Shown: one piece after another, positions 9,521-50,555 of the stretch
Position numbering within the stretch: the stretch's first letter is position 1
Layout of the letters: every line of letters starts with the position of its first letter
NCBI RefSeq assembly: GCF_000025705.1
Contig: NC_013959.1
Location: forward strand, 670,001 to 734,000
Length of the DNA stretch: 64,000 bases
Direction of reading: 5' to 3'
Origin: Sideroxydans lithotrophicus ES-1
GTDB lineage: Bacteria; Pseudomonadota; Gammaproteobacteria; Burkholderiales; Gallionellaceae
Translations under genes and position numbers: made by a program
Notes under the pieces: generated by a model
What the model saw: the letters and a program-made list of their open reading frames with translations, nothing else
Databases searched by the model: none
Told to the model about the DNA's origin: nothing

Positions 9521-10996
9521 ATGCTGAAAATCTATAACACCCTCGCTCGCGACAAGCAGGAATTCAAACCCATCATCCCCAACACCGTGCGCATGTATGT
9601 GTGCGGCATGACGGTGTACGACTACTGCCACCTCGGTCATGCCCGGGTGATGGTGGTGTTCGACATGGTGTACCGCTGGCTCAAGGCTTCCGGCTACGAC
9701 GTGACTTACGTGCGCAACATCACCGACATCGACGACAAGATCATCAAGCGCGCGGCAGAGAACAAGGAATCCATCCATGCGCTGACGCAGCGCTTCATCG
9801 ACGCGATGCACGAAGACGCCGATACGCTCGGGGTGCAGCGTCCGGACCACGAGCCGCGCGCCACCCAGTATGTGCCGCAGATGCTGGAGATGGTCGCGCA
9901 ACTGGAACAGAACGGGCTGGCCTACCAGGCGGCGGATGGCGACGTGAACTATGCCGTGCGCAAGTTCGATGGCTACGGCAAGCTTTCCGGCAAGTCATTG
10001 GAAGACCTGCGTGCCGGCGAACGCGTTGAAGTCGTCAGCGACAAGCACGACCCGCTCGACTTCGTGCTGTGGAAACACGCCAAGGACGGCGAAGCGGACG
10101 AGGTGAAATGGGACTCGAAGTGGGGGAAGGGCCGTCCCGGCTGGCACCTCGAATGCTCGGCCATGGCTTCGGACATCCTCGGCAACCATTTCGACATCCA
10201 CGGCGGCGGCGCCGACCTGCAGTTCCCGCACCACGAGAACGAGATCGCGCAGAGCGAAGGCGCCCACCGGTGCCAGTACGTGAACTACTGGATGCACAAC
10301 GGCTTTGTGCGCGTGGACAACGAAAAGATGTCCAAGAGCCTGGGCAACTTCTTCACGATTCGTGAGGTTCTCAAGAAATACGATGCTGAAGTGGTGCGCT
10401 TCTTCATCCTGCGCGCGCACTATCGCAGTCCGCTGAATTATTCCGATGTGCATCTGGACGATGCCAAGGGTGCGCTGACGCGGCTTTATACTGCATTGAA
10501 GAGTGCTCCCTCATCCTCGATCCTTCCCCCAGAGGGGGAAGGAAGTGAATTCCCCTCGCCCTCTGGGAGAGGGGCTAGGGGTGAGGGTGTCATTGATTGG
10601 GACACTCCCCATGCCGCCCGCTTCAAATCCGCCATGGATGACGACTTCAATACACCGGAAGCCATCGCCGTGCTGTTCGATCTCGCCAACGAAGTGAACC
10701 GCAGTCAATCGGTAACAGCCGCAGCAGAACTCAAGACATTGGCCGGTGTGCTTGGCCTGTTGCAACGCGACCCGCAGGATTTTCTGCAAGGCAGAGCTTC
10801 TATGAATTTGACAGTGCCAACTCCCACACTTGAGGCTAGCGGGGGGGCTTTGGACATTGATGCTTTGATCGAAGCCCGCATCGCAGCTAAGAAGTCAAAG
10901 AATTTCGCCGAGGCAGATCGCATCCGCAAAGAATTACTGGGAGCGGGAATCGTGCTGGAAGACACGCCACAGGGCACGACGTGGAGGCGCGCCTAG
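9521..10996 (+). CDS. cysS: Cysteinyl-tRNA synthetase with in-frame palindrome-encoded insertion
   Basis: Class I synthetase of 491 residues charging tRNA-Cys. The zinc/HIGH region is [15 protein letters not shown] (residues 27-41) and the KMSKS loop is [10 protein letters not shown] near 267. Between the catalytic core and the anticodon-binding region, about 30 residues ([17 protein letters not shown]...) are encoded by a palindromic repeat at 10508-10588; the frame stays open on both sides, so the enzyme is probably functional with an extra loop. The last 119 bases are repeated, in degraded form, at 11716-11833 beyond a toxin-antitoxin pair. Confidence 0.94.
10508..10588. repeat. Composite palindromic repeat inside cysS
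   Basis: Outer arms CCCTCA (10508) and TGAGGG (10582-10587) enclose two hairpins: CCTTCCCCC-AGA-GGGGGAAGG (10522-10542) and a CCCTCTGGGAGAGGG-type one (about 10553-10576). This looks like an intergenic REP-type element, but it lies in the cysS reading frame without breaking it. Similar G/C-tract palindromes occur at 30188-30250, 46925-46972 and 48388-48447. Confidence 0.75.
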
Positions 10997-11074
10997 TTGC
11001 AGGAGCGCAAATTATTGCGTGAGTGTTGTGCGATTCATACGAGAGGCAGGGGATGACGGGGCGCGAGGCCTGAA

Positions 11075-11404
11075 TCAGGTAATCTCAATCAGCTTTTCTC
11101 CTGCTTCGATCTCGGAGATGATTCGCGCCATCATCGGTTCTATCCAGGTCAGCAAGGCCTGTTTGCCAATATTTCCAACGCGTACCCAAACTATCGGCGG
11201 CGCGTCCGCACTGGTGCCGACCATGCTGACGAAGTCCTCGTCTTTGGTGAAGATGGCAGCGTGATTTGAGACGGCGTAGTTCCAGATGATCCTGTCGCTT
11301 GCTGCCGCCAATCCTATGTCATAGACGTGCTCTGCCTGATGTCCTGCGCTACTGAGGTAGCGCGCCAGCGCGGGCGGAAGCTGCGCATCGACAAGAAATC
11401 TCAT
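11075..11404 (-). CDS. DUF5615 PIN-like toxin candidate
   Basis: A 109-residue protein beginning MRFLVDAQLPPALARYL and carrying IFTKDEDFVSM near residue 72: the acidic residues and spacing of the DUF5615 PIN-like family, which is usually paired with DUF433 proteins in putative toxin-antitoxin modules. A PIN fold implies RNase activity; that is inferred from the family. Its start lies 2 bases after the stop of the DUF433 gene on the minus strand, so the pair is an operon with antitoxin first. The module lies between the two copies of the cysS 3' end. Confidence 0.8.
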   Translation of the reverse strand: MRFLVDAQLPPALARYLSSAGHQAEHVYDIGLAAASDRIIWNYAVSNHAAIFTKDEDFVSMVGTSADAPPIVWVRVGNIGKQALLTWIEPMMARIISEIEAGEKLIEIT

Positions 11405-11406
11405 TT

Positions 11407-11631
11407 TCAGGCTGCTTGCAGTATTGGGTGGTCTACTTGCATGGCAGCATATTCAAGTGTGGCAGTAATATCCTCGGTTTCAAGATAAGGGAAATCTTTG
11501 AGAATTTCTTCTCTGGTCATGCCGGATGCCAGCATTTCCAGTACGTCTTTTACACGTACCCGTAGACCGCGAATACAAGGCCTGCCACCGCACATATTCG
11601 GGTCAACGGTGATTCTGGTGACTTGTCCCAT
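11407..11631 (-). CDS. DUF433 antitoxin candidate
   Basis: A 74-residue protein with the DUF433 hallmark ITVDPNMCGGRPCIRGLRV near residue 6 and ASGMTREEILKDFPYLE. These small winged-helix proteins commonly precede DUF5615 PIN-like toxins and are presumed to be the antitoxin and autorepressor. Start chosen at the ATG at 11631, which has GGAGGG a few bases upstream; the frame also opens at 11658. It is the first gene of the two-gene minus-strand module. Confidence 0.8.
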   Translation of the reverse strand: MGQVTRITVDPNMCGGRPCIRGLRVRVKDVLEMLASGMTREEILKDFPYLETEDITATLEYAAMQVDHPILQAA

Positions 11632-11715: not shown

Positions 11716-11833
11716 GCATCGCCGCCAAGAAAGCCAAAAACTTCGCCGAGGCAGACCGCATTCGCAAGAATTGCTGGGAGCAGGCATCGTGCTGGAAGAC
11801 ACGCCGCAGGGCTCGACCTGGCGCAGGGCTTAG
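11716..11833 (+). pseudogene. Decayed duplicate of the cysS 3' end
   Basis: These 118 bases align with the last 119 bases of cysS (10878-10996), with roughly 17 mismatches by eye and one missing base (CGCAAG-AATT against CGCAAAGAATT) that would break the frame. The shared text includes CTTCGCCGAGGCAGA and GTGCTGGAAGACACGCC. The copy ends with a TAG at 11831-11833 that overlaps the stop of the convergent pilin-like gene, as a native convergent gene end would. The two copies bracket the DUF433/DUF5615 module. Confidence 0.85.
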
Positions 11834-12507
11834 GGCAGCTTGCCGGCCGTCACCAGACGGTTGAATAGCGTGTTGGGAGAGACCCAGACCACCATGTCAT
11901 CAAAGGTCGGCGACATGTCGTGGCTGACGAAGGTGAGTGTTCCGCTGGTCGAGTTTGTCGCTTCATCAGCATCAGTGCTCACAGCCAACTGATTGCCCTC
12001 CGGCATCCACGCTCCGGAACCATTCACCCCGTGCGAGACAATGACAGCCGGCATGTTGGCTGCGATAGTGGTACCGGTTGTTGATGTCTTTACATTCAGG
12101 TTGCCAGTTGAAGTAAGTGCAACCGAAGAGGCAAAAACAGCAGTCACTGAATAAGTAAATCGCCGTCCCCAGGCATCCGTCTCATTTGTTCCCAATGTGA
12201 CCCATGGCAGCACACCCGAAGTGATGGTGCATACTCCCCCGGTTCGAGCCTCCACGCCTGCATTCACAGTGCCGGTTGGAATTGAGGGGCTGGCCGGGCA
12301 GGGGAGCTTTGGGGGAGTTTGGCTGGTGGCGTATCCGATCAGGGCGCCGCGGATATCATCAAGCTGCTTGCGTGTCTCGGTGCGGCGTTGCTGCTCCATC
12401 TGGCTGGAGATCATGGGCAGCAATCCCGCCAACAAGAGCGAGATGATGACGAGCACGATCGCCATTTCGACCAGGCTGAAACCTGCAGTAATCAATCTTT
12501 TGTTCAT
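11830..12507 (-). CDS. Type IV pilin-like protein, last gene of the MSHA-type cluster
   Basis: A 225-residue prepilin: short basic leader ending in Gly, then FSLVEMAIVLVIISLLLAGLLP (prepilin peptidase site G/F, Glu at mature position 5). After the helix come GYATSQTPPKLPCP, a GVLPW motif and DAWGRRFTYSVTAVF. The ATG at 12507 overlaps the stop of the preceding gene (ATGA), so translation is coupled. It may be a minor or the main pseudopilin of this system. It resembles the preceding long protein in its LPW...W...Y module and not classical MshA. Confidence 0.75.
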   Translation of the reverse strand: MNKRLITAGFSLVEMAIVLVIISLLLAGLLPMISSQMEQQRRTETRKQLDDIRGALIGYATSQTPPKLPCPASPSIPTGTVNAGVEARTGGVCTITSGVLPWVTLGTNETDAWGRRFTYSVTAVFASSVALTSTGNLNVKTSTTGTTIAANMPAVIVSHGVNGSGAWMPEGNQLAVSTDADEATNSTSGTLTFVSHDMSPTFDDMVVWVSPNTLFNRLVTAGKLP

Positions 12508-14291
12508 GGGCAATTGTTCTTTCCGTCTACGCATAGCACCAGGTCGTTGACCGTCGAGTAATTGGTTGTGTCGGAGGATTTATAGGTGATGAAATCGGTT
12601 GCAGGTGTGGCACCTGCAACCGACTGATGTGCGTTGGAGTTGCTCCCGGAGGTCTCGAGGTAAGTGGAGGGAGGATTGTTCTGGTTGCGCGGGCTCTGAC
12701 CTGTCAGCATCTTGCCTGCGATAATGACCGTTGCACGGTATGTGCCGCTATCTACGTTCGTATTTCCTGAACCGCTGATGTGCAATGGAGTGAATGTTCC
12801 ACTTGCGCCCGTTTGGGGTTGATAACCAGCGGCCACCTGGTAGAAAACCAGATCACGCCAATCCGGCCAGTAAGCCGATGTCAGGATCAATTTATTGCAA
12901 CTAGGGATCCCCGCCCAGCTGCTGGGCATTGTATTGTCGTTCGTGGCTCCGGTTGGAATGGCATTCAAAGCGGTCTGGACCTGGGTGGTGAGCGTACCTG
13001 TGCAGGACATGCCGGAACAATTGTCGGCAGTGTTGCCGGCTGCGCGGGCCGGGTCGGTAGGTGCCTGGAAATATGGACTGGCCGCAGCAAAGTCCTTTAG
13101 TGTGTCCCCTTTGTTCCTCAGTGTCCCGAGATTTGAAAAGGTTGGGTTATTAATGTAATTGATCAAAGCGGTCTGAACATCGATGATCTTCTGCTGGAGT
13201 GCCAGATCGGAAGGCGAAGGTGTACCGCCGCTTGATGTGGCATTGCCGGGGATATCGGAAACCCTGCCGAAGAATACGTTGTAAGTGCCGGTCCGGTTCG
13301 GGTAGGCAGTCGTATCACTCACTTGCGTAGCCCACGGGTAGCGGTGGTATATGTTGGTCAACTCGACAGCATAGTCGTCCAGACAGGATTTCACTTCGCG
13401 TGCGATGCGTTTTTCGATGAGCGGCATCAGGTCGTCGATGGTGACATAGAGCAACTTGTCGTTGAAATGATAAGTTGGGTCTTCAATTTGTTTGCCCGGA
13501 TTTGCAGGGTCATCTATCCAGCGGTGCTCGTCGCCCATGATGAAATCGTCATCCATGTCGGCGTTGCTGTAGGTACCCGGCACACAAGGCGCAGCACAGG
13601 TCGCAGGAACGGTGATGCTGTCGAGATACTGGTTCGCGCCACCGAGTCCTGGCCCGCCCTGGGCAGTAGAGAGCGGGCGCGATTGACCGGGCAGCGCGGC
13701 ACCCGGGATGAAAATGATGAGGGCAACGCGAGGACTGAGTATATTACCCTTCATGTCGCGCACGGTCAGCCATGGGTGCGGCGCGGAATTCAACAACTCG
13801 GAATTAAATGGGGTAGTACCGGTATCGACCATATTGGCGGAGATGGCGTACCAGGGCATAAAGCCCGTAGGGTCGTTCTCCGAAGGGGAGGCGATGGGCA
13901 TATTGAACACCTTCCATGGGAGTCGCCCAAGGCAGCGCATATTCGCACCGCTACTTATTGGGGGAAGTCCATTGGCTTGTGCTGCATTAAGGCAACCGCC
14001 CTCGGTGTTTCCATCATAGTTTGGAGGCGTTTCGCTCAGTACGTCCGGGTAAAGCAGCTCGCCGGGATATTGGGAGCTGGCTGTATTGTTGAGCGCATAC
14101 CCAACGACTATTTCTTTTACCTGCGCCAGCATATCGCTGCTTTGCCGCTGTTGTTCGGTATGCAATGAGACCTTGCTCAGCGCACTGACCAGGAAAGCCG
14201 CCACGCCCACGACCAGGATGACCAGCATTACGATGAACGCGGCACCGCGTTGTCGCTGCAGAGAAGTGTGAGTTGTGCGCGAGGAGTGCAT
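12504..14291 (-). CDS. Large pilin-like protein of the MSHA-type cluster
   Basis: A 595-residue protein with a PilX-like N terminus: QRQRGAAFIVMLVILVVGVAAFLVSALSKV around residues 13-43, i.e. a basic leader then a single hydrophobic helix, without a canonical Glu5. The body is large, with several Cys pairs (for example CAAPC) and a LGRLPW...PWYAISANM module near residues 110-145 reminiscent of the next gene. It is far longer than typical minor pilins, so it may be an exposed tip or adhesive subunit; that is inference. It lies 14 bases after the MshK-like gene. Confidence 0.6.
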   Translation of the reverse strand: MHSSRTTHTSLQRQRGAAFIVMLVILVVGVAAFLVSALSKVSLHTEQQRQSSDMLAQVKEIVVGYALNNTASSQYPGELLYPDVLSETPPNYDGNTEGGCLNAAQANGLPPISSGANMRCLGRLPWKVFNMPIASPSENDPTGFMPWYAISANMVDTGTTPFNSELLNSAPHPWLTVRDMKGNILSPRVALIIFIPGAALPGQSRPLSTAQGGPGLGGANQYLDSITVPATCAAPCVPGTYSNADMDDDFIMGDEHRWIDDPANPGKQIEDPTYHFNDKLLYVTIDDLMPLIEKRIAREVKSCLDDYAVELTNIYHRYPWATQVSDTTAYPNRTGTYNVFFGRVSDIPGNATSSGGTPSPSDLALQQKIIDVQTALINYINNPTFSNLGTLRNKGDTLKDFAAASPYFQAPTDPARAAGNTADNCSGMSCTGTLTTQVQTALNAIPTGATNDNTMPSSWAGIPSCNKLILTSAYWPDWRDLVFYQVAAGYQPQTGASGTFTPLHISGSGNTNVDSGTYRATVIIAGKMLTGQSPRNQNNPPSTYLETSGSNSNAHQSVAGATPATDFITYKSSDTTNYSTVNDLVLCVDGKNNCP

Positions 14292-45398: not shown

Positions 45399-48300
45399 AT
45401 GTCTAATCAATTGGCCCTCGACCCCAAGCACAGTATCGTCGTCGAAGCCTGCGCCGGCAGCGGCAAGACCTGGCTGCTGGTGTCGCGCATCGTGCGTTTG
45501 CTGCTGGATGGCGCGCAGCCCTCGCAGATCCTGGCCATCACCTTTACCCGCAAAGCGGCGCAGGAGATGCAGGCGCGTCTGCAACTATGGCTGCGCGATC
45601 TGGCGATGGCTGACGATGCCGCAGTTCGCAAGTTCTTCGCCGAGCGTGGGTTGGAAAGCCTGAGCGAGTCGCAACTGCAGCGTGCCCGCAGCCTCTACGG
45701 CAGTGTGCTGCTGGCACAACCCGGCATCACCATCAGCACCTTTCATGGCTGGTTCATGCAAGTCATGCAGCGTGCGCCGTTGAATGCCGACGTGATGCTG
45801 GGCATGAGTCTGCTGGAGCGTGCGGGAAGCGAGCAGGAAGAAGCGTGGGAGGAACTGCTGGAGCAGATGCGCAAGCAGCCGGATGGGGCTCTGGCGCAGT
45901 ACATGCAGTGGCTATTCGGCGAATGCGGCCTGTTCAATACGCGCAAGCTGCTGTTCAACTTCCTCGGCAAACGTGCCGAATGGTGGGCTTATACCCAGGG
46001 CCAGACCGATGTGCTTGCCTTTGCACTGGATAAGCTGCGTGCCGATCTGGCCGTGGACATGGACTTCGATCCGGTCGCCGATTGGGGCATGTGCGGCAAC
46101 AGCGAAGAGGTGTTTTTCGCTTTCGTGCGACAACTGGCGAACGATGGCACGGGGACGCAGAAGAGCAAGGCGAGCGAGCTGGAACTTGCCTGGACAGACT
46201 CGAGGCCGGAAGAACGCTTTGCGAAGGTTCAGCCATCGCTTTTTACTCAGGCAGGCGAACCCCGCAGTTTCAAACCGACCAAGCAACAGGATGCTGAAGC
46301 GTTTCTGGTAACGCGCGAGGCGTTGTTCGGCAGCCTGCAAGAAGTGCGCGACACGCTTGCCGAACAGCAGGCCTATCGCCTGAATGAGGCTGTGCTGCAT
46401 TGCGGCGTGGCTTTCCTTGAACGCTACCAGGCACTCAAGGCGCAGAAGCAGCAGATGGATTTCTCCGATTTGGAATGGCAGTTGTGCAGACTGCTGCAAC
46501 AGAGCGAACATGCCGAGACCATGCAATACAAGCTCGACAGCCGCTATCGCCATGTGTTGCTGGACGAGTTCCAGGACACCAACCCGCTGCAATGGCAGAT
46601 CCTGCGGGCGTGGTTCGATGCATCGGTGGCCGTGGATTCGCAGCCTACCGTTTTTGTCGTCGGCGATCCCAAGCAATCCATCTATCGCTTCCGTCGTGCC
46701 GATGCGAGACTGTTCGGTGTGGCGCGTGAATACCTGCAGGAATATTTCTCGGCCCAGACACAGGGCAACAGCCTCACGCGTCGCAACTCGCAACCGGTGG
46801 TCGATGCGGTGAATGCTGTGTTTCATGAGCAGCCGGATGGGTTCGAGTTCGTTGAGCACCAGACGCACCAGAAAGAACTGCCAGGGTATGTGCTGGTGCT
46901 GCCTTTGGCAGTCGCCGAAGTTATCCCCTCTCCCAATGGGGGCGGGGATATTAACGGGGCTGGGGGAGAAGGCGAAGAGTTGCGCCTGCGCGATCCGCTG
47001 ACGACGCCACGAGACGAAGCGGAAGAGGGTGCGCGTCAGATCGAAGCCGCACAGTTCGCCGAGATGCTGCAAACCATCGCTCGTGATTGGTCGGTGAACG
47101 AGGGAGGTCAGGAACGTCGCGCTACATATGGCGACATCATGGTGCTGGTGCGCAGCCGCACTCACCTCACGGTGTACGAAGAAGCCCTGCGTGCGCGACA
47201 CATCCCTTTCATCAGCTCGCGCCGCGGCGGCCTGCTCGACACGCTGGAAGCGGAAGACGTGCAGGCGCTGCTGATGTTCCTCATCACTCCGTTCGCCGAC
47301 CTTGCGCTGGCGCAAGTGTTGCGCACCCCCATCTTTGCCTGCAGCGATGCGGATCTGATGCGCCTGGCGCAAAATAGTGCCGAGTACGGAGCGACAAGTA
47401 GCGAGGGCGGCGCAGAGATTTCTGCTCAGCGCTCAGCACTCGGCACTCGAACTTCATGGTGGCAGCGCCTGCAGCATCTCGGCGACCCGTCGCCCGCACT
47501 GCGCCGTGCCACCGGGTTGCTACAACGCTGGCTTGCCCTTGCCGACAAACTCCCCGTGCACGACCTGCTCGACCGTATCTATTTCGAGGGCGATGTGCTG
47601 GCACGTTATGCCGCCGTGCTGCCGCCCGAGATGCGCGCCAAGGTCGCCGCCAATCTGCATGCCTTCATGGAGATCGCACTGAGCGTGGATGCGGGCCGCT
47701 ACCCCAGTTTGCCGCGCTTCCTGCAAGAACTGCGCGAACTGCGCGACAGCAAAGATGATGCGCCGGACGAAGGCAAGCTCGGCTCGGCAGGTGATGCCGT
47801 ACGCATCTACACAGTACATGAGTCGAAAGGTCTGGAAGCGCCCATCGTCTGGCTGCTGGATGCGAACGCGGAAAAGAGGAGCATGGCTGGCAACGATGTC
47901 CTGCTCGACTGGCCTACGCAAGAACCACAACCATCGCATTTCTCGTTGTATGCCGACCAAGCCTCGCGCGGTAAGAAACGCGCCCACTTGTTTGAGCAGG
48001 ACGCCGCACAGCAGGCCCGAGAAGAGATGAATCTGCTCTATGTCGCCATGACCCGCGCGCAACAGGCGCTCATTGTCAGCGGCAACAAGGGCGGCAAGGA
48101 AAATCGCTCTACCACGTGGTATGAGCGCATCGCGGCAGTGGCGAGAGATCAGGAGAACCCGCTGCGCAAGGCAGTGCCATCCGCTGTGGAAAAACAGGGT
48201 GCAGCAGGACTGGTTACCTTGCCCGCCATTGAACCTGCCGGAAAACGTGCCGCACGCAACACGATGCAGCAGCAACGCGGTATCTGGCTGCACGCGTTGC

Positions 48301-48803
48301 TGCAACACCTTTCGGAAACTTCTCCTGATGTAACTACTAGCCATTCGACTAAGTCCGCAAGCGGGCAAGTCGCTGGTTTTCGCCCGCCCCTCACCCCACG
48401 CCCTCTCCCGGCGGGAGAGGGCGCTTTTACGGGGCCAGGGGAGAGGGAGATGCTGCAGCAACGCCTCGGTATTCCTTTCGCGGAATTCGAATCATTGCTG
48501 CAGCAGGCACAGCACCTGCTTACCCTGCCGCAACTAGTACGCTTCTTCGACGACCGGCAATACCGCAATGCCTGCAATGAGATGCCCTACATCAACGCCA
48601 GGGGCGAATTGAAACGCATCGACCGTCTGGTCGAATTCGACGACGAAGTGTGGGTGGTGGATTACAAGCTGGGTGACAGTGAAGATGCCGACCGTTACCG
48701 CCAGCAGATGCAGGAATATCGGGCGGCGATGAAATCGGTGTATGCGGGCAAGGTAGTGCGCTGCGCGCTGGTGTTTGCGGATGGGGTATTGAGCGAGGTG
48801 TAG
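45399..48803 (+). CDS. addA: AddA-like helicase-nuclease with three in-frame repeat insertions
   Basis: A 1134-residue UvrD-family helicase/nuclease. Walker A ACAGSGKTW near residues 18-26, VLLDEFQDTN (motif II), GDPKQSIYRFRRAD, TVHESKGLEAPIVWLLDA and LLYVAMTRAQQAL. The C-terminal nuclease has GELKRIDRLVEF and VVDYKLGD. Three segments (about residues 508-526, 660-682 and 995-1018) are encoded by palindromic repeats at 46925, 47376 and 48388 without frame loss. A decayed copy of the 3' end lies at 50150-50426, beyond a catalase gene. The 156-base spacer from addB is unusually long and has no clear gene. Confidence 0.85.
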   Translation: MSNQLALDPKHSIVVEACAGSGKTWLLVSRIVRLLLDGAQPSQILAITFTRKAAQEMQARLQLWLRDLAMADDAAVRKFFAERGLESLSESQLQRARSLYGSVLLAQPGITISTFHGWFMQVMQRAPLNADVMLGMSLLERAGSEQEEAWEELLEQMRKQPDGALAQYMQWLFGECGLFNTRKLLFNFLGKRAEWWAYTQGQTDVLAFALDKLRADLAVDMDFDPVADWGMCGNSEEVFFAFVRQLANDGTGTQKSKASELELAWTDSRPEERFAKVQPSLFTQAGEPRSFKPTKQQDAEAFLVTREALFGSLQEVRDTLAEQQAYRLNEAVLHCGVAFLERYQALKAQKQQMDFSDLEWQLCRLLQQSEHAETMQYKLDSRYRHVLLDEFQDTNPLQWQILRAWFDASVAVDSQPTVFVVGDPKQSIYRFRRADARLFGVAREYLQEYFSAQTQGNSLTRRNSQPVVDAVNAVFHEQPDGFEFVEHQTHQKELPGYVLVLPLAVAEVIPSPNGGGDINGAGGEGEELRLRDPLTTPRDEAEEGARQIEAAQFAEMLQTIARDWSVNEGGQERRATYGDIMVLVRSRTHLTVYEEALRARHIPFISSRRGGLLDTLEAEDVQALLMFLITPFADLALAQVLRTPIFACSDADLMRLAQNSAEYGATSSEGGAEISAQRSALGTRTSWWQRLQHLGDPSPALRRATGLLQRWLALADKLPVHDLLDRIYFEGDVLARYAAVLPPEMRAKVAANLHAFMEIALSVDAGRYPSLPRFLQELRELRDSKDDAPDEGKLGSAGDAVRIYTVHESKGLEAPIVWLLDANAEKRSMAGNDVLLDWPTQEPQPSHFSLYADQASRGKKRAHLFEQDAAQQAREEMNLLYVAMTRAQQALIVSGNKGGKENRSTTWYERIAAVARDQENPLRKAVPSAVEKQGAAGLVTLPAIEPAGKRAARNTMQQQRGIWLHALLQHLSETSPDVTTSHSTKSASGQVAGFRPPLTPRPLPAGEGAFTGPGEREMLQQRLGIPFAEFESLLQQAQHLLTLPQLVRFFDDRQYRNACNEMPYINARGELKRIDRLVEFDDEVWVVDYKLGDSEDADRYRQQMQEYRAAMKSVYAGKVVRCALVFADGVLSEV
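46925..46972. repeat. Palindromic repeat in addA, copy 1
   Basis: CCCTCTCCC (starting about 46926) pairs with GGGGGAGA (about 46962); an inner GGGGGCGGGG tract is present. It encodes SPNGGGDINGAGGEGE in the AddA frame. It is the same family style as the cysS and murA-hisG repeats. Confidence 0.6.
47376..47447. repeat. Palindromic repeat in addA, copy 2 (different family)
   Basis: Arms AGTGCCGAGTAC (47376-47387) and GCACTCGGCACT (47436-47447) pair with one mismatch; an inner hairpin GCAGA-GATT-TCTGC lies at 47411-47424. It encodes SAEYGATSSEGGAEISAQRS in AddA. It differs from the G/C-tract repeats. Confidence 0.6.
48388..48447. repeat. Palindromic repeat in addA, copy 3
   Basis: A 10-bp perfect hairpin GCCCTCTCCC-GGC-GGGAGAGGGC (48400-48422) inside outer arms CCCTCACCCC (48388) and GGGGAGAGGG (48438-48447). 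It encodes a PLTPRPLPAGEGAF-type peptide in AddA. It is the canonical form of the family and close to the copy before hisG. Confidence 0.75.
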
Positions 48804-48932
48804 GATACACACCTTTCGAGAGCACCACCTGTGTTGTGCTTTAACGCCGCACACTCTGGCATGTTCCGCAGCAAGTACCAACCCGCCGGATTTTTCCTTG
48901 CGCATCAGGATCAGTCGGGAGCTTGTCGTCTG

Positions 48933-49955
48933 CTATATCCCGCCCATCCGTTTGGCGAATGAGAACGCGTATGCCGGCGAGCGGAAAAGCAGAATCGGGT
49001 CATTCGTCGGTTCAATGCCGTCCGACATCACCAGCGGATCGAAGTTGATCTTTTCACATTCGGCGCCCTTCTGCGGCATGGCCGAAGAAATCGTCAGCGT
49101 TCCAAACTTGATTGTCTTGCGGTTGTCGGGCCAGGCGATGGTCGGGTTGTCCTCGGTGTCGCCCGGCTCGCCTATGGAAACCAGCATGTCCCAACGTATC
49201 GGACCTTGTTTCGTGCGCTTGATCAGCGCCTCCTCGAGGAAGTTCGGCGGAGACGTTTTCAGTTGCTCATTAGTCAGCCTCTTTTCCCCATCCTGCGGAA
49301 CGAACCGCCAGCGCACATACGTGATCTTGTTGTCGCTATTAATGAACTTGAACGTGTGAATGCCAAAAAAGGCGCTGTTGGCATAGCTTGGCGGCGGGTT
49401 GTTCTTGGCGAGAAACGTGGCCTGTGCCAGATTGTCGGGATGACTTGTCTGGAATGCCTTGATCTTCTCGGGATCGGGTTTGCCCGTCGCCGGGTCGGGC
49501 CTGGAGGCGATGATCATGTCCACAAATGTCTGGGGTTTGGCCGCGCCGAATATGGGCGTGTTCAGCATCGTTATGTGTTGGAGGTTGTCACCAGGCAGCC
49601 TGAACTCCAGGGCCATGCCTCGCGCGGACTTCGCCGTGTCAGGTGCCTTGGGATTGCCGCCGGCCAGCGAGAAACGAGCGACGACTGGCACTGGTTTCCC
49701 TGAAAACAACGCCGAACGCGAATAGGGTGCAGCCGCTGCCGTGCCGACAAATTCACCCGCAGCACAGGTTCCCTTGGTGTGATTGCGTCGTTCTCCGGGG
49801 GTTACCCCAAAAGTATTTTCGAGGGCTGTCACCGCCTGTTCGGCAGTCACTCCGTTTGTTTCCGCCCTGCTGCAGGGCGTAGTTAAGGTAAGGGTGGCAG
49901 TTAGCAAGCATGTTGTCAGAGAAATTGATTTGGTGTCCATGTCAGCGTCTTTCAT
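48933..49955 (-). CDS. Exported catalase-family peroxidase (SrpA-like)
   Basis: A 340-residue protein with signal peptide ending near PCSRA, so exported, unlike cytoplasmic catalases. The small catalase fold is shown by RRNHTKGTCAAGEF (His region), VPVVARFSLAGGNP, ARGMALEFRLP, and FGIHTFKFINS with WRFVPQDGEKRL. Probably a heme peroxidase rather than true catalase, as for SrpA-type proteins. The start may be 49955 or 49940. It lies between addA and the decayed addA tail copy, on the opposite strand, as if inserted there. Confidence 0.82.
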   Translation of the reverse strand: MKDADMDTKSISLTTCLLTATLTLTTPCSRAETNGVTAEQAVTALENTFGVTPGERRNHTKGTCAAGEFVGTAAAAPYSRSALFSGKPVPVVARFSLAGGNPKAPDTAKSARGMALEFRLPGDNLQHITMLNTPIFGAAKPQTFVDMIIASRPDPATGKPDPEKIKAFQTSHPDNLAQATFLAKNNPPPSYANSAFFGIHTFKFINSDNKITYVRWRFVPQDGEKRLTNEQLKTSPPNFLEEALIKRTKQGPIRWDMLVSIGEPGDTEDNPTIAWPDNRKTIKFGTLTISSAMPQKGAECEKINFDPLVMSDGIEPTNDPILLFRSPAYAFSFAKRMGGI

Positions 49956-50149
49956 CAGGTTGAAGAACTTCTAAGCGATATCAAGCGTTAGGCGATTACG
50001 ACCGGGGCGGTATCGCGGCAATAACTGCTGTGGTGCACAGTGGATAAGTAGACTCCCTAAAATGTGCTGCTGCAATACGCTCAACACCGTAGATACACCT
50101 CGCACATTCATGGAATCGAGAATCTTCGCAGCATTGTCTTCTGCGCAAA

Positions 50150-50426
50150 TGGCTGGCATGCGCAAACTTACCCACGTCCTGGATGCACTGCGATATCGTG
50201 GCGCCTGCAGCGAGATGCCCGTCATTCATGCCAAGGGAGAATTGAAACGCATCGACCGTCTGGCCGAACTCGACGACGAAGTATGGGGAGATTGCAAACT
50301 GGACGATAGCGAGGACGGCAGCTACCGTACGCAGATACGGTAGCATTAAACGTCGGTGCAACCGGTATATACAGGCAAAGCAGTGAACTGGTGTTTGCCG
50401 ATGGAGTGCTGGATGCTGTGGTGTAG
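50150..50426 (+). pseudogene. Decayed duplicate of the addA 3' end
   Basis: The translation around 50200-50330 (SEMPVIHAKGELKRIDRLAEL, then DDEVWG) matches the AddA C terminus (NEMPYINARGELKRIDRLVEF, DDEVWV). After gaps, the text again matches to the end (VFADGV and a GTGTAG stop at about 50426). Nuclease motif DYK is damaged (GDCK) and the frame is broken. The copy lies about 1.4 kb downstream of the true addA end, with the catalase gene between. Confidence 0.85.
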
Positions 50427-50462
50427 AGGAGCAATTTTAAGGTCGCTTCGATCGGCCTTCCT

Positions 50463-50502
50463 GCCTTCCAGGTGCATTGCATAGACAATGCACCTGGAAG
50501 GC
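50463..50502. repeat. Perfect 17-bp inverted repeat
   Basis: Arms GCCTTCCAGGTGCATTG (50463-50479) and CAATGCACCTGGAAGGC (50486-50502) with a 6-base loop CATAGA. There is no T-run, so it is not a typical terminator. It lies 37 bases after the addA remnant and could be a regulatory hairpin, a protein site or the relic of a mobile element end. Confidence 0.8.
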
Positions 50503-50555
50503 TTCAGTAAGGCCTCGAACCAGTACATCCGCAAGGATTGCCAGAAAATACCCAT

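Follow-up and report, generated by a model that had tools for sequence, protein, structure and literature searches.

Intact addA and cysS genes followed by accessory cargo and a displaced 3' end in Sideroxydans lithotrophicus ES-1

Genomic islands in the 3' ends of genes and tRNA genes carry an integrase and fixed attachment sites; the element restores the gene end and the old end is displaced. C-terminal displacement has been outlined for rhs loci, with a circle proposed for the rhs tips (PMC2935791). In Vibrio cholerae, effector-immunity modules of the type VI secretion system (T6SS) are described as displaced, and homology-facilitated illegitimate recombination is suggested there (PMC5361080). 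For integrase-free hotspots, the account given is one of recombination in both flanking core genes (PMC5635113). Here we describe displaced 3' ends of two housekeeping genes, the helicase-nuclease gene addA and cysS, in a 64,000-nucleotide stretch of contig NC_013959.1 (positions 670,001 to 734,000; the whole stretch is called the window). It lies inside the genome under study (G000), that of the iron-oxidising bacterium Sideroxydans lithotrophicus ES-1, a single contig of 3,003,656 bases.

At both genes the intact copy is followed by a passenger and then by an orphan 3' end in the same orientation as the gene, a topology like that of Rhs loci. The layout recurs in relatives with different cargo, and at cysS the displaced tail is the resident one. 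The analysis confirms a recurrent pattern of C-terminal displacement in which the anchors are housekeeping genes and the passengers are small addiction modules or enzymes.

Displaced ends of addA and cysS in the window

The addA locus is composed as follows, in window coordinates.
45399..48803, + strand: intact addA, a helicase-nuclease gene of 1134 amino acids (UvrD-helicase and PDDEXK_1; the TIGR02784 match is below its cut-off)
48331..48450, + strand: expanded hypervariable linker in addA, in-frame, of repeat-like DNA (CCCTCTCCCGGCGGGAGAGGG), delimited from the sequence and the alignment of relatives
48451..48803, + strand: present addA 3' end, which would be the incoming one under the import reading weighed below
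48933..49955, - strand: cargo, gene for a small catalase-fold protein, convergent with addA (Pfam match; nearest solved structure 3e4w)
49956..50084, no strand given: upstream region of the catalase-like gene, common to the addA loci L212 and L251 of relatives up to the junction
50066..50426, + strand: addA 3' end, displaced and decayed; alignment is confident from 50165 and the start probably near 50066 (GCTGCTGCAATACGCTC, like addA ...HALLQHL)

A first-pass annotation of the window had proposed a decayed copy of the AddA C-terminal region behind the true gene end, and our comparisons agree. DNA at 50203-50407 matches addA 48570-48787 with 72% identity over ~210 bases (E 1.2e-25), and the translated remnant matches AddA residues 1040-1124 with 51% identity, with one TAG and one TAA inside. 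The peptides named at that time (GELKRIDRL, DDEVW, VFADGV) are present. A genome-wide DNA search (threshold E <= 0.001) listed only two places, the addA tail and the remnant. A DNA profile built from the addA tails of relatives gave 152.6 bits on 50000-50426. The confident match covers 50165-50414, about 1.4 kb beyond the true addA stop at 48803, and the remnant terminates at 50426, at a stop codon homologous to that of addA. The first estimate of the extent thus holds at this end. At the other end it shifts: the start probably lies near 50066, upstream of the 50100 first suggested, and 50066-50164 is too decayed for confident alignment.

Two other explanations were rejected. Chance similarity would have to account for 152.6 bits, whereas the best of 200 mononucleotide shuffles of 50000-50426 reached -1.0. 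An independent nuclease gene, one of two outcomes named beforehand as speaking against a displaced end, was not seen, as the remnant matches the AddA tail only, contains stops and terminates where the stop codon of addA would lie.

Directly behind the remnant, an inverted match at 50460-50505 forms a near-perfect palindrome (CCTTCCAGGTGCATTG...CAATGCACCTGGAAGG), a possible terminator or repeat. In many relatives, the two hypervariable linkers of AddA hold in-frame repeat-derived peptides (for example TLTPCPLPEGEG, LDSRLRGNDG), which look as if palindromic repeats had entered the coding gene.

The gene between the true end and the remnant lies on the opposite strand and is catalase-like, as first annotated; it is presumably Slit_0713. 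Its open reading frame (ORF), at 48933-49955, can be assigned to the Catalase family (PF00199; E 2.5e-41, 142.5 bits, cut-off 25), and its product is a short catalase-like protein. The nearest solved structure by sequence, 3e4w, is a catalase-fold protein listed as uncharacterized. The N-terminus is hydrophobic, as seen by eye, and on this basis the product may be exported, as first annotated.

The second case in the window, at cysS, has the same layout, as the first-pass annotation had pointed out.
9521..10996, + strand: intact cysS (TIGR00435, 573.6 bits)
10997..11052, no strand given: stretch 3' of cysS resembling the flank of the RAYT-type transposase gene beside cysS in two relatives, G011 and G005 (87-88%, ~50 nt)
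11075..11404, - strand: cargo, DUF5615 (PIN-like) gene, presumed toxin (PF18480, E 1.2e-25)
11410..11631, - strand: cargo, DUF433 gene, presumed antitoxin (PF04255, E 2.5e-26)
11716..11833, + strand: displaced resident cysS 3' end, with a stop that overlaps that of the pilin-like gene, an arrangement shared with empty-site relatives
11830..12534, - strand: pilin-like gene, the native right-hand neighbour of cysS

Here too the intact gene precedes opposite-strand cargo (11075-11631) and a second tail (11716-11833). We searched 464 kb of G000 (450 ORFs) for ORFs with a same-strand match to their tail downstream and found six: cysS and addA as clear cases, three paralog-like and one weak (36%). 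The same search in 400 kb of G024 (386 ORFs) gave eight downstream tail matches, four partial and weak and none resembling the addA and cysS cases, and in G051, which served as a more distant control (400 kb, 327 ORFs), seven were found, one of them clear and partial. Displaced 5' ends, looked for in the same search, yielded 6 (G000), 14 (G024) and 5 (G051) matches, mostly paralog-like, with no clear counterpart. The clear match in G051, a genome from this order, is at G051:C1:1234692-1242852: the final 43 aa of a 427-aa gene recur 6.7 kb downstream with 79% identity, a layout like that of an island in a gene end.

Tails and cargo in related genomes

The addA tail was present in 32 of the 34 genomes of the genus that we searched, with a second match in G000, Sideroxydans sp. 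GS37 (G025) and G003. In G025, a transaldolase gene (PF00923) follows addA, and behind it come a truncated EAL fragment and the decayed tail of addA. The extra match in G003 (G003:C16:1888-3000, contig locus L072) belongs to a second AddA-like partial frame of 377 aa (48-52%); the genome is a draft, and the contig measures 3 kb. We left it out of the count because the contig is short and the match, 52% identical, is part of a longer AddA-like frame, which is either a paralog or a foreign contig.

A wider scan of named genomes covered 59 addA loci, 54 of them including the tail. It showed a displaced tail at two to three loci (L204, which is G025; L212; and a 38-bp piece in L217 with a DNA-profile E of 8.7e-8), a count that may miss displaced tails because the downstream sequence at these loci spanned between 150 and 7000 bases. 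The gene directly behind addA is different in nearly every relative. At L212, addA is followed by a catalase-like gene, HicA/HicB and the addA tail. The HicA/HicB-like pair at this locus (L212:11860-12440; HicB recognised by eye) lies between two repetitive extragenic palindromic (REP)-like repeats, between the catalase-like gene and the displaced tail.

Relatives of the catalase-like gene stand directly behind addA at L212 (83%) and L251 (81%), that is, at 2 of the 59 loci. The other outcome named beforehand as speaking against the first-pass annotation, a lack of the addA-catalase junction in relatives that excludes insertion, was not seen. The shared catalase block ends at the same place in G000, L212 and L251, at a string resembling the addA codons HALLQHL; the DNA-profile match to addA at that string is weak (E 0.016 in L212, E 0.07 in L251). 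The remnant of G025 starts at profile position 26, within ~6 bases of this junction, despite its other cargo. Read most simply, the catalase-like gene arrived once, long ago, with a remnant that began at the HALLQHL codons, and this remnant was then lost or replaced in L251 and L212. Four genomes (G026, G050, G023 and G004) were considered as the origin of the gene and rejected: they hold 68-76% similar genes but lack the shared upstream region. In G026, G050 and G004, the gene is on another contig or far from addA.

For cysS, a 43-aa consensus of the tail was searched in 158 family genomes. It matched in 137, more than once in 11, and a short second tail was found in nine of the 137 (G000, G005, G011, G012, G073, G091, G109, G120 and G143); in eight of these genomes it shares a contig with the intact gene. 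The two other multi-match genomes were without a short tail (G111, a long open frame on another contig; G153, a weak match on another contig). The displaced cases and a selection of other genomes provided the cysS regions that were then compared.

Seven of the eight genomes with both cysS pieces on one contig carry a toxin-antitoxin module between them: DUF5615/DUF433 in G000, G073 and G109, PIN with Phd/YefM in G012 and G120, PIN_3 with Phd/YefM in G005, and HTH with HipA in G143. The cassette of G073 and G109 is common to both (95% DNA), and that of G000 is related (75%). The cargo of the eighth, G011, is a RAYT-like gene. In G091, DUF433 lies behind cysS on one contig and the displaced tail on another, and G030 has a module of the G120 type without a detectable displaced tail. 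No integrase was found among the scanned cargo ORFs of any case examined.

In G011 and G005 (loci L173 and L175), a RAYT-like (Y1_Tnp) gene stands directly behind cysS, flanked by REP-like inverted repeats. It is of the Y1 type in G005 and is recognised in G011 by 83% DNA similarity. Further short pieces of cysS tail behind this gene may be layers of successive events; their matches are weak (E 8e-4 and E 1.3).

On a 129-position profile, the cysS remnants start at positions 4, 14, 15, 15, 15, 19, 39, 50, 54 and 66, and none is longer than 126 bp. Five of the ten entries fall at 14-19, and two of these five (G073 and G109) represent one event.

Resident tails and how they may have been displaced

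The neighbourhood of cysS tells which copy is resident. We searched for the pilin-like neighbour in 49 sequences downstream of cysS, and it was in range in 37. At loci without a displaced tail, it lies 3 nt from cysS in 19, 5-6 nt in two and 655-3158 nt in eight. In G000, it is the displaced tail that lies at 3 nt from this neighbour, and the intact cysS is 840 nt away. This remnant shares 74.8-90.4% identity with the tails of other genomes (best G024, 90.4%) and 82.6% with its own intact tail, which ranks 20 of 28 genomes. The intact tail is unusual among relatives, with at most 82.1% identity to any other genome. As the displaced tail sits at the native 3-nt spot and is closer to relatives than the intact tail is, it is the older, resident tail of G000, pushed aside by an incoming gene end and its cargo. 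The other displaced tails lie 14 (G120), 16 (G109), 81 (G091), 883 (G005), 1360 (G011), 1468 (G073) and 3267 nt (G012) from the pilin-like gene. At addA, variable surroundings preclude the neighbour-distance test, and the decay of the remnant precludes a tree; by analogy with cysS, the current addA tail would be the newcomer and the displaced one the resident.

We consider it fairly probable that the cargo was imported and the resident tail displaced by one-sided recombination. Incoming DNA from a related bacterium would have carried the 3' part of addA with a foreign gene behind it. The addA part would pair and recombine in the resident addA body, and the far end, without homology, would be joined inside the last few hundred bases of the resident gene. 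The outcome would be a working addA made of the resident body and the incoming tail, then the cargo, then the resident tail, which would decay because it was left downstream without a start. At cysS, the same route would have brought in a toxin-antitoxin pair. Homologous recombination in the gene body combined with a join in the resident tail is the most likely course; that join would be of the illegitimate type, and the DNA could have entered by natural transformation or another uptake of linear DNA. Such a course would yield every case observed. The intact genes are candidate hybrids; a mosaic analysis of the addA body, aimed at the crossover, gave no clear switch of nearest relative.

Several observations weigh against one-sided import. 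The G000 addA tail was expected to be nearest to the tails of the other catalase carriers, which did not hold (L212 ranks 18 and L251 ranks 27 of 49). Roughly the same distance separates the addA remnant from all relatives (62.8-74.3%) as from its own tail (69.1%, rank 25 of 33). Approximately unbiased (AU) tests, which reject nothing on these short and poorly resolved tail trees, leave the remnant as a possible sister of its own tail at addA (p 0.416) and at cysS (G000 p 0.30, G011 0.18, G005 0.19). The term "duplicated" in the first-pass annotation is therefore compatible with the data at addA; at cysS of G000 the evidence speaks for replacement. The cysS remnant of G012 clusters with the intact tail of that genome (97/91), in keeping with a local copy or a same-species donor. 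In G005, G011, G012 and G073, the displaced tail lies 883-3267 nt from the pilin-like gene, and the native spot is not visible there. Junctions differ between events, yet break points cluster more than random joining suggests. Finally, G000 has genes of the ComEC and DprA families, but so do control genomes (ComEC in 10 of 14, DprA in 11 of 14), and such common genes say little about competence.

In another explanation, which we regard as unlikely, a small circle composed of a gene 3' fragment and the cargo would enter the gene end through one homologous crossover, and the remnant start would mark the circle closure. This would produce the same layout without an illegitimate join in the recipient, and it resembles the route put forward in the account of Rhs C-terminal displacement (PMC2935791). 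One closed circle gives the same remnant start wherever the crossover fell, in keeping with the clustered starts; different cargo with similar starts, however, would require several circles, each closed at almost the same position, and no circle or excision product is known here. The present data do not tell the circle from one-sided import.

A bolder and rather improbable idea is that the ends of cysS and addA are preferred landing sites for a class of very small cassettes without an integrase, most of them toxin-antitoxin pairs, which bring along a functional end of their target gene. Each arrival would repair the gene and push the previous end back, and the clustered breaks would reflect a recombinase from elsewhere. 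Slightly less probable still is site-specific integration, in which small cassettes would enter preferred codons in the two gene ends through a recombinase from elsewhere and the gene end would be restored as by islands targeting tRNA genes or gene ends. The clustered cysS starts and the shortness of all cysS remnants (<=126 bp) point in this direction, as do the addA start at profile position 26 in G025 and the weak matches at 20 (L251) and 23 (L212), where the catalase block ends. However, these L251 and L212 matches are statistically weak and may stem from one old event common to three lineages, the cysS starts spread over >60 bp, and L212 addA has a second break far downstream. The cargo is without an integrase, and the addA and cysS sites, compared by eye, have no common core. 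The observations bearing on a repeated attachment core are the clustered remnant starts and a weak repeat of the addA LLQHL codons. Least probable by our estimate is a local tandem duplication of the gene end with later insertion of cargo between the copies: the AU result at addA and the grouping of the G012 cysS remnant with its own tail are compatible with it, but at cysS in G000 other species match the remnant better than the intact tail of the same genome does, two events would be needed each time, and the recurrence of different cargo between copies would be unexplained.

If one-sided import is the right reading, a displaced gene end is a readable fossil of small accessory genes entering the chromosome without mobile-element machinery, recording the arrival, the side and a rough age. 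Gene-end remnants beside housekeeping genes could then be used to count and date imports. That toxin-antitoxin cargo recurs behind cysS suggests a way for addiction modules to become established in chromosomes, beside a presumably essential gene with which they arrive.

Comparison with described systems

A literature search found nothing describing displaced tails of addA or cysS, although such a description may still exist. In Neisseria, minimal mobile elements likewise place different small gene sets between conserved genes; they differ in having two homologous arms and are not known to leave a displaced tail. Genomic islands in gene ends share the restored gene end and the displaced old end, but here no integrase was found in the cargo. 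Integrase-free hotspots resemble our loci in that accessory genes turn over beside core genes without mobile elements, whereas the model outlined in that work places recombination in the core genes on either side, with no displaced gene end as a result (PMC5635113). The T6SS modules, as portrayed for V. cholerae, share the homologous anchor upstream, the illegitimate join downstream and the backward shift of resident parts (PMC5361080). There, T6SS genes are the anchors and useful immunity genes are retained; here, a decaying fragment is retained. As set out for rhs loci, a new gene end arrives with a passenger, the old end is left downstream, layers form in succession and the process is limited to close relatives, all of which recalls addA and cysS (PMC2935791). 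In that account selection acts on the swapped rhs end, a toxin tip that is itself the variable part; here the swapped end belongs to a housekeeping gene, its function is the same after restoration, and the passenger has no relation to it.
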